This document shows positions 1 to 2,304 of a DNA stretch of 36,306 nt, one piece after another. The translations under genes and the position numbers were made by a program. The notes beneath the pieces were generated by a model. That model saw only the letters and a program-made list of their open reading frames with translations. It ran no database searches and was not told the origin of the DNA. Source of the DNA: a bacterium (GTDB lineage Bacteria > Myxococcota_A > UBA9160 > SZUA-336); NCBI GenBank assembly GCA_024226335.1, contig JAAELY010000232.1, forward strand, positions 1-36,306. Reading direction: 5' to 3'. Position 1 is the first letter of the stretch; the number at the start of each line of letters is the position of its first letter.

Positions 1-169
1 CTAGGGAATCTCTGCACAGGGAGGAATCGAGCGAGAAGCGGGAGTCGCCGCCTGAGCAAGAAGCGTGATCCGATCGCAGATCCGTAGATCTGCAGAGGGT
101 CGCGCGACGCAGCGCAGGCGGATGCATCACGCTTCGCAGCCGCAGCCTCCCTGTGCAGAGGTTCCCTAG
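1..169. repeat. Nested inverted-repeat (MITE-like) element
   Basis: Bases 1-24 and 146-169 are inverted copies of each other with 23 of 24 positions matching, and both outer ends read CTAG. Inside lies a second perfect 10-bp inverted pair (60-69 with 126-135), then a 7-bp hairpin with a 4-base loop (76-82, loop 83-86, 87-93) and a palindrome at 99-108. The element carries no open frame. This nested architecture is typical of miniature transposable elements or REP-like units. The left end coincides with the window edge, so it may extend further. The right CTAG supplies the TAG stop codon of the neighbouring reverse-strand gene. No transposase is visible, so family assignment is not possible. 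Confidence 0.7.
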
Positions 170-2304
170 TCGGCGAAAACGGACCTTCCCGCGCCGATTT
201 CGGCGCGTGCGGAGTCCTGGATGATCGATCGCATGAACCACTCGGGCAGTCGCTCCCCGCTCTGCAGCGCGTTCCTCACGAGCCGACCGCTAATCGGTAG
301 TACCCCAGTTCCAGACTGAGGCACGAGGGAACGCTCTTCGGGATCGTAGCCCAGCGTTTCGAAGAAAACCGGTTCGATCCCCAGGTCGCCCATCGATTCG
401 AACAGCGCCCGTGTGGCTCGGCCTTCGGAGCTGTCGTTGCGGCCGAGTACGATGTGGCTAAACCCCATATTCTTGCGGCAGAGCGCCAGCAGGGCCGCTT
501 CGCGCGCGCCAGCGCCGGCGGAGTACATGGCCGATGCCCCCAGGAGCACGCGGTCCCGCGGATAGAAGCCGAAGTCGATCAGCATCTGATAGGCGCGCAG
601 CGTGAATCCAGGCAGGAAGTCGCCCGGCTCGACGGCACCGGTCTCGATCGTAAGGTACAGGCCGTCTGCGTGGGTCAGGTCCAGCGCCCGGTGCTGGATT
701 TCCTCGTGGGCGCGGTGTGGGAGCGTGTGGGTATGGAAGGCGATGATCCGATTCCAGCCCTTCTTCGCGAAGAGGTAACGCGTATCGGCCGGTGGCAACT
801 GGTACTGGCGGTGCGGAGCCGGAAGCCGTTTGATCAGTTTGATCTCTCCGGCCAGAAGGACACCTTCGCGGCGCATCAGTCGGGCGACACGAGCATCCGC
901 TTCCGCGTCGCCGCCGAACCAACGCTCGGCGTGTTTGCCGAAGTCGAATTCGAAGATTTCACTCACTTCCATCAGGGAGTGGACGTCCCCCGACTCCTCG
1001 CATAGCGTGATGCGCTGCCCGGCTTCCAGGCCTTCGGCGGCCGCACCGGGGATCCGCAGCACGATCGGAACCGGCCAGGCCACTCCATCCGGGAGGCGCT
1101 GCTGATCGAGGACGGAGCGCACGCTGTCGAGGTTCATGAAACCGGACAGGGGGGAGAAAGTGCCCAGTGCAATTCGCTGACAGTCCAGAAGGTCCTGGCG
1201 CGGCAGTTCGATGCGGCGCAACTGCTCGATCCCCTCGAGATCGGGACCACTCGCGTTCTGGCTGACCAACGTTCCGCCGTGAGGCTCGACCAGTAGTGAG
1301 ACGGGCTGCGAGACGCGTTCGAAGGGATCGCGGTCGGCACTTTCCTCGAAAGCTTGTACGAGCTTCTTGATCATGCTGACGCAACCGATCGGGTATTTGC
1401 CTACCGCAGTCTCTCCCGCCAACACGAGGCCGTCCGCACCGTCGAGGATCGTGTTGAACACGTCATTGACCTCGGCACGTGTCGGCGTCGGCTGTGTCGT
1501 CATCGATTCCATCAGATTTGTTGCGACGTACACGGGTTTGTTCGCCGCTTTACCGACGGAAATGATCTTCTTCTGGACCAGTGGGATCTTCTCGATCGGG
1601 ACCTGTCGCGAAAGGTCACCGCGGTCGATCAGTAGAGCATCCGAGTGTTTGGCAATGGCCTCGAGGTTCGCGAGACCAGGAAGGCACTCGATCTTTGAAA
1701 TGACCGTGGCATCTGGTGCCGCAACCGCACGGATTTCATCAACGTCAGATGCGCGATGGGCGAAAGAAAGTGCGACGTAGCGAATTCCCAGGCCCTTGCC
1801 GATCTCGAGCGCGCGGCGGTCTTTCGCGGTCAAGGGCGGTAGTTCGATGTCGCGTTCCAGTGTCGCGGCCTTGTTCCGACCGACCAGGCCGCCGGTCAGT
1901 ACACGCAGGACCACACCGTCGTTTTCTCGATCGATGACCTGCGTGAGCACGGTGCTGTCGATCGTAATGAAATCGCCGATCTCGAATACGGATAAAACGC
2001 TATCGGGTGTCAGATTGAAACTATGGGCATCTCCGGGAACCGGATGCCCCGGAACACGGATCGTGCTGTTTTCCCGCAGCACGACCTCGTCTTCGATCAG
2101 GTAACCGGTGCGAATCTGTGCGCCTTCGGTATCGAGGCAGATCGGTACCGACGTCCGCTGTTGCAGGTATTCGATCTGGGAACCGACCTGCTCCGCCGAG
2201 ATGTGTGAGAGGTTGAGCCGAAACAGGCTCACGCCCAGTTCTTCCATGCGAGCGATGACTCGATCGTTCATGGAGGAGGGGCCGAGCGTGCACAATATCT
2301 GCAT
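166..2304 (-). CDS. Pyruvate kinase-like / ATP sulfurylase-like fusion protein
   Basis: The 712-residue protein has two parts. Residues 1 to about 340 resemble the pyruvate kinase barrel: CTLGPSS at the start, RLNLSH near 29-34, SKIE with the catalytic-type lysine, a DRGDL segment, PTRAEVNDV and GETAVG. The regulatory C-terminal kinase domain is absent. Residues from about 365 resemble ATP sulfurylase (Sat): GTFSPLSGFM, PHRAHE near 528-533, AREAALLALCRKN and ISGRLVRNAL with PEWF near the end. Key motifs differ from the families: DTKGPEIR reads DTEGAQIR, the sulfurylase QTRN reads HTHT, and GRDHAG reads GRNDSS. I infer a nucleotidyl-transfer role rather than ordinary sulfate activation. I chose the ATG at 2304 because it lines up with kinase N termini; an in-frame GTG at 2379 would add 25 Pro/Ala-rich residues. 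The stop codon is formed by the adjoining repeat element. Confidence 0.8.
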   Translation of the reverse strand: MQILCTLGPSSMNDRVIARMEELGVSLFRLNLSHISAEQVGSQIEYLQQRTSVPICLDTEGAQIRTGYLIEDEVVLRENSTIRVPGHPVPGDAHSFNLTPDSVLSVFEIGDFITIDSTVLTQVIDRENDGVVLRVLTGGLVGRNKAATLERDIELPPLTAKDRRALEIGKGLGIRYVALSFAHRASDVDEIRAVAAPDATVISKIECLPGLANLEAIAKHSDALLIDRGDLSRQVPIEKIPLVQKKIISVGKAANKPVYVATNLMESMTTQPTPTRAEVNDVFNTILDGADGLVLAGETAVGKYPIGCVSMIKKLVQAFEESADRDPFERVSQPVSLLVEPHGGTLVSQNASGPDLEGIEQLRRIELPRQDLLDCQRIALGTFSPLSGFMNLDSVRSVLDQQRLPDGVAWPVPIVLRIPGAAAEGLEAGQRITLCEESGDVHSLMEVSEIFEFDFGKHAERWFGGDAEADARVARLMRREGVLLAGEIKLIKRLPAPHRQYQLPPADTRYLFAKKGWNRIIAFHTHTLPHRAHEEIQHRALDLTHADGLYLTIETGAVEPGDFLPGFTLRAYQMLIDFGFYPRDRVLLGASAMYSAGAGAREAALLALCRKNMGFSHIVLGRNDSSEGRATRALFESMGDLGIEPVFFETLGYDPEERSLVPQSGTGVLPISGRLVRNALQSGERLPEWFMRSIIQDSARAEIGAGRSVFAD

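Follow-up and report, generated by a model that had tools for sequence, protein, structure and literature searches.

A pyruvate kinase-like/ATP sulfurylase fusion in bacteria and its possible role in sulfate activation for surface glycans

Known Sulfate-Activating Fusions

Sulfate activation is strongly uphill, and the known fusion solutions involve pyrophosphatase, APS kinase or GTPase partners. Described fusions join ATP sulfurylase to APS kinase (PAPS synthases), to pyrophosphatase or to APS reductase (PMC4220642, PMC2275785), and "pyruvate kinase" is absent from both of these sulfurylase-fusion reviews. The protein considered here resembles them in having a sulfurylase joined to a partner that would pull an unfavorable reaction, but its partner is a pyruvate kinase (PK)-like domain. 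In Entamoeba and Thiobacillus denitrificans, an inactive sulfurylase-like domain is fused to APS kinase (PMC13213808). The present protein similarly keeps a sulfurylase half judged to be dead, whereas its partner is PK-like and not an APS kinase.

The Fusion Gene and Its Predicted Product

The window, i.e., the whole stretch of DNA analyzed, comprises 36,306 nucleotides of contig JAAELY010000232.1. The gene and its domains are as follows.

166..2304, minus strand: fusion gene P0001, a single open frame of 712 aa
1381..2304, minus strand: PK-like barrel and B domain, without C-domain (Pfam PF00224, E 1e-69; PF00224 match placed at 1381-2307)
826..1287, minus strand: PUA-like domain of ATP sulfurylase, PF14306 (PUA_2; Pfam E 5e-35)
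226..807, minus strand: ATP sulfurylase catalytic domain PF01747, decayed copy (Pfam E 1e-40)
1..169, no strand assigned: short element with 43-nt terminal inverted repeats (79% complementary), outside the fusion gene

The gene starts with ATG at 2304 and its stop codon lies at 166-168 of the minus strand. This choice of ATG agrees with the N-termini of relatives; an alternative in-frame GTG at 2379 would add 25 aa, an extension absent from relatives. Pfam was searched with the resulting 737-aa frame, in which no PK C-terminal domain was found, in agreement with the preliminary description of this DNA. This domain is absent from some short PK models too. None of the NCBIfam PK and sulfate adenylyltransferase models reached its cut-off with the fusion protein (TIGR01064 scored 273.9 against a cut-off of 306.4 bits, and the other NCBIfam PK models were further below). 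The AlphaFold model, computed from an alignment without row L006, is confident (pLDDT 90.8, pTM 0.86), and Foldseek matched its sulfurylase part to ATP sulfurylase 8a8d (TM 0.91 of target) and, separately, the model to pyruvate kinases in PDB. The fusion of PK-like and sulfurylase-like parts proposed earlier is thus real, as judged from the single frame, the Pfam match of each half and the confident fold; its coordinates were right, the strand is minus, and all quoted motifs are found in the protein.

The 169-bp element, with CTAG outermost, directly adjoins the fusion gene's stop codon and terminates the contig. It resembles a MITE-type element at which the assembly broke, and only one flank of the gene is visible in the window because the contig stops there.

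Distribution and Phylogeny

A profile of the PK signature region identified 131 relatives, most of them full-length fusions and most of them from MAGs, in at least ten phyla. They include Alpha-, Beta-, and Gammaproteobacteria, Omnitrophota, Verrucomicrobiota, Planctomycetota, Acidobacteriota, Actinomycetota, Chloroflexota, Elusimicrobiota, Bdellovibrionota, Myxococcota, KSB1, and others. For analysis 80 of the 131 were fetched, and 79 were usable for PK-like motif counts. A tblastn search of plasmids found full-length homologs with 50% identity on Sinorhizobium chiapasense and Ensifer adhaerens megaplasmids; a single-sequence scan of genome contigs and viral contigs returned no relatives. In the window's own phylum the fusion is rare (3/379 genomes), and the relatives L081 and L084 carry the Myxococcota label. 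It is extremely improbable that two genes were joined by a sequencing error or that the resemblance is due to chance, and this explanation was rejected on the more than 60 proteins of the same architecture across phyla; an assembly artefact was likewise dismissed, as the fusion is also found on two circular megaplasmids and its fold is confident.

In the tree of the PK half, in which L059 and L072 (see below) were still classed as decayed sulfurylases, the family forms one clade apart from control PKs, with support 100 and a long branch. The sulfurylase half likewise forms one clade apart from control Sats (support 99), so that both trees uphold the earlier suggestion of a separate clade. No description of the PK-like/sulfurylase architecture was found in the literature searched, and the fusion apparently represents a widespread, undescribed bacterial enzyme family.

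The PK-Like Domain

Three segments of the window protein carry the family-specific PK motifs.

2104..2139, minus strand: CLDTEGAQIRTG, in which E and Q are family-invariant; the same positions vary in ordinary PKs
1606..1632, minus strand: LIDRGDLSR, family signature (ARGDL in ordinary PK)
1405..1422, minus strand: LAGETA, with A in place of S of the ordinary-PK LSGETA

The motifs D[TS]EGAQ and DRG(D/E)(L/M)SR are present in all 79 usable members. The residue before RGDL is D in 79/79 family members and A in 30/30 control PKs, and SGET has become AAET (LAAETA signature), with A in 79/79 members versus S in 28/30 controls. Also family-wide are a Q that occupies the E/K position in the DTKGPE loop and N for Q after the catalytic T. 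The preliminary description had regarded the PK motifs as altered: the change from ARGDL to DRGDL is strong, but that of DTKGPEIR alone is weak; this motif is variable in ordinary PKs, DLQGPKIR being commonest in the control set and one control having Q at the E position. A PROSITE-like PK signature pattern was non-discriminating (15/83 family members, 16/30 controls) and was dropped.

Residues R29, N31, S33, H34, D58, R65, K145, K204, E206, R228, G229, T262, and E298 are kept in 79/79 members and D230 in 78/79, decayed and stand-alone members included; we take this set to be the catalytic or Mg2+/PEP-binding residues of pyruvate kinase. Judged by these residues, the PK-like domain never decays, unlike the sulfurylase half. 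The family thus shares with pyruvate kinase (PF00224, TIGR01064) the barrel and B domain, these residues and its best sequence and fold matches, but lacks the C-domain, stays below the NCBIfam PK cut-offs, has DRGDLSR and LAAETA and forms a separate long-branch clade.

Such conservation bears on whether the domain is catalytic. It might be a PEP-sensing or scaffolding regulator without turnover, like the inactive APS-kinase-like domain of fungal sulfurylase, given that there is precedent for inactive partner domains in sulfate-activation fusions (PMC13213808) and that active-site neighbors are changed; but retention of phosphoryl-transfer and metal residues in at least 78/79 members is unusual for a pseudoenzyme, and stand-alone PK-like proteins occur in operons with APS kinase only, which makes a regulator unlikely. 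The family D and A would probably affect enolpyruvate protonation. As a tentative possibility, the domain may be a new enzyme that employs the PK center, one Asp gained and one Ser lost, for a step of sulfate activation or sulfuryl transfer that depends on PEP or enolpyruvate, differs from the conversion of ADP to ATP and belongs to no known pathway.

The Sulfurylase Half and Its Decay

Two segments of the window protein correspond to the active-site motifs of ATP sulfurylase.

703..741, minus strand: AFHTHTLPHRAHE, QXRN/HXXH region; R and N are gone, HxxH is retained
421..447, minus strand: LGRNDSSEG, degenerate GRDHAG loop

In the Allochromatium sulfurylase, sulfate is held by the side chains of Gln and Arg in QXRN together with the amide of the GRD-loop Ala, and the alpha-phosphate by Thr and Asn of the same QXRN motif (PMC3779200). 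Nearly all relatives have an intact-looking sulfurylase with HTRN, HxxH, and GRDH[TS]G. Of the 57 intact members, 56 have H for the Q of QXRN (Q in every readable control sequence), 53 have T in place of an H, and 56 have I or V where an invariant R would stand; most or all keep R, N, HxxH, and GRDH. Compared with ATP sulfurylase (Sat; PF01747 and PF14306), the family has both domains in order and HxxH, and the relatives also R, N, and GRDH, but it differs by Q to H in QXRN and by its separate clade; the window copy in addition has lost R, N, D, and H of QXRN/GRDH.

The window copy reads HTHT, with HRAH kept, and GRNDSS; the Arg, the Asn, and D-H-A of GRDHA are gone and the loop is shortened, so this half can hardly work and almost certainly lacks sulfurylase activity. 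The altered sulfurylase motifs pointed out earlier (HTHT, GRNDSS) are present but peculiar to this copy, the family norm being HTRN and GRDH[TS]G; the reported loss of sulfate-binding residues is true of the window copy. Other decayed members are L040/L045 of Thauera, as well as L049, L081/L084, and the window's tree neighbors L013, L015, L017, and L033. The tree indicates at least three decay events, L059/L072 left out, and two lineages in which the half is missing altogether; read from these sequences, decay or loss is a recurrent, independent process. L059 and L072 were dropped as decayed sulfurylases, as they turned out to be PK-like-APS kinase fusions. One KSB1 assembly carries two fusion copies (L017, L048), the sulfurylase half being decayed in one copy and intact in the other.

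Gene Neighborhood

An APS-kinase-like gene is nearby, adjacent, or fused in 44/83 loci, mostly immediately downstream, and its start often overlaps the stop of the fusion gene. Stand-alone PK-like genes are translationally coupled with APS kinase in L077, L078, L083, and L090, and in L092 the PK-like protein and a family-type sulfurylase are encoded by separate neighboring genes. Direct fusions were seen in Omnitrophota.

L059:9905-11404: PK-like-APS kinase fusion, Pfam-confirmed
L072:1430-2947: PK-like-APS kinase fusion, by tblastn

An iterated profile found sulfotransferase genes in 34 loci, concentrated close to the fusion (30/299 at gene ranks 1-2 versus 5/522 at ranks 4-8, p about 1e-9), with neighboring genes called by a simple open-reading-frame method. 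All four sulfotransferases tested with Pfam (4/4) were Sulfotransfer_3, and neighbors match Sulfotransfer_3 and APS_kinase above the Pfam cut-off. In the window no such sulfotransferase gene can be seen, as the contig ends. Polysaccharide genes surround the fusion (Wzy ligase, epimerases, aminotransferases, NeuB-/NeuA-like proteins, glycosyltransferases), as judged from sequence for most loci and by Pfam for the rhizobial cluster.

L006:11704-21241: rhizobial megaplasmid cluster with Wzy ligase, P-loop kinase, beta-helix protein, fusion, APS kinase, antiporter, PqqD/HprK-like protein, and NTP_transf_5

This cluster is likely an uncharacterized sulfated exopolysaccharide locus.

A Na+/H+ exchanger gene (PF00999) is enriched next door to the fusion in distant phyla (16/299 versus 0/522), one to two genes downstream at the following positions, among others.

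L013:13218-14489: Na+/H+ exchanger
L015:9140-10339: Na+/H+ exchanger
L017:12419-13684: Na+/H+ exchanger
L028:12695-14149: Na+/H+ exchanger

Two Myxococcota relatives have a gene of the alkaline phosphatase/sulfatase superfamily before the fusion (inside L008:1757-5488, and L009:7953-9806) and encode a protein of about 200 aa without Pfam match after it.

Sulfurylase and APS Kinase Elsewhere in the Genome

If the sulfurylase half makes APS, a genome would be expected to do without it only when it encodes a second sulfurylase. With strict cut-offs, a separate Sat or CysD is present in 19/23 genomes in which the half is decayed, missing, or replaced versus 16/35 in which it is intact (p 0.006), and, counting shorter or divergent CysD, in 21/23 versus 23/35 (p 0.03); these p values ignore shared ancestry, and many of the genomes are draft MAGs. 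The two genomes with a decayed or missing half and no separate sulfurylase are MAGs, and the separate Sats are canonical (QTRN/GRDHAG). The genome of the window has both Sat and CysD/CysN-C, plus APS kinase, on other contigs. The earlier statement that no cys or sulfate genes lie nearby holds for the window, but the contig ends just past the gene.

APS kinase is present in 30/31 genomes, a set mostly chosen for having no adjacent APS kinase, and on this ground the idea that the PK-like domain replaces APS kinase was ruled out. In a sample of the window's phylum it was found in 34/58 genomes.

The loss of the half mostly where a canonical sulfurylase exists elsewhere, the retention of most of its site and the adjoining PAPS genes point to sulfate as the substrate of the intact sulfurylase halves. 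The same three observations, including the APS kinase and sulfotransferase genes within surface-polysaccharide clusters, speak against the view in the preliminary description that the protein is a nucleotidyltransferase acting on an unknown substrate.

Given the family-wide Q to H, H to T, and R to I/V changes, sulfate could be bound differently or be replaced by another oxyanion. The Campylobacter O-methyl phosphoramidate pathway (Cj1415-Cj1418) combines, in a polysaccharide cluster, an APS-kinase relative, a nucleotidyltransferase, and a PEP-synthase-like kinase, and APS-kinase relatives acting on CDP-phosphoramidate are known; its first steps are performed by different enzyme families, and it has no sulfurylase. 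By analogy, and as the preliminary reading or a variant of it would have it, the sulfurylase half might adenylylate a phospho-acid or other oxyanion from the PK-like half, with APS-kinase-like and sulfotransferase-like enzymes acting on the product. The replacement of the sulfate ligand Q by H and the other two substitutions fit such a scheme, but the loss of the half accompanies canonical Sat/CysD, which supply APS only, the neighbors are Sulfotransfer_3 and APS_kinase above cut-off, and nearly all intact members still have R, N, HxxH, and GRDH. Altogether, such a scheme is quite improbable.

Proposed Function

The preferred reading, to which we give a probability of about 0.5, is that the family is a sulfate-activation (PAPS-synthesis) module for cell-surface glycan sulfation, with a PK-like part that regenerates ATP from PEP. 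In intact members, the sulfurylase half would make APS from ATP and sulfate, an APS kinase (next door, fused, or elsewhere) would then make PAPS and ADP, and the neighboring sulfotransferase would use PAPS on surface glycans. The PK-like domain probably turns ADP into ATP with PEP: it would rephosphorylate the ADP released by APS kinase, renewing ATP for both steps and relieving the dead-end inhibition of APS kinase by ADP-APS, and PEP would thereby pull sulfate activation forward. In the window protein only the PK-like step would take place, and Sat or CysDN encoded on other contigs would provide the APS. ADP and APS trap APS kinase in an inhibited complex (PMC3734648), and in vitro PAPS systems add PK and PEP to avoid the ADP inhibition of APS kinase (PMC9885120). 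The PK-like domain, with its intact phosphoryl-transfer center, is the constant element, and the partners are PAPS enzymes; PEP-driven ADP removal and ATP renewal is the simplest mechanism.

Against ATP regeneration, the family-invariant PK changes would be needless for it and suggest altered chemistry, and the genome of the window already has an ordinary PK of the cell. Within the same sulfate-activation module, the PK-like domain might thus perform a new PEP- or enolpyruvate-linked reaction instead of converting ADP to ATP, for example with the ADP-like APS as nucleotide, or with a phosphoryl or sulfuryl group moved between nucleotide and enol acid. The invariant substitutions beside an otherwise intact catalytic center would suit such a reaction, as would the persistence of the PK-like domain where the sulfurylase is lost and its fusion or operon linkage to APS kinase, a binder of APS and ADP; moreover, APS and ADP bind ATP sulfurylase almost identically (PMC3734648). 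The neighboring genes, however, predict no product and ATP regeneration is simpler, so that a new reaction appears rather doubtful, and regeneration of ATP from PEP is retained as the preferred role.

Significance

Automatic annotation would label the proteins of this family as pyruvate kinase or sulfate adenylyltransferase. In rhizobia, Thauera, Methyloversatilis, Omnitrophota, and others, the family marks clusters whose likely products are sulfated bacterial surface glycans. If a family spread over many phyla indeed couples sulfate activation to a PEP enzyme, this would represent a novel means of powering PAPS synthesis or a novel reaction, and enzymatic sulfation would benefit from a PAPS supply driven by PEP.
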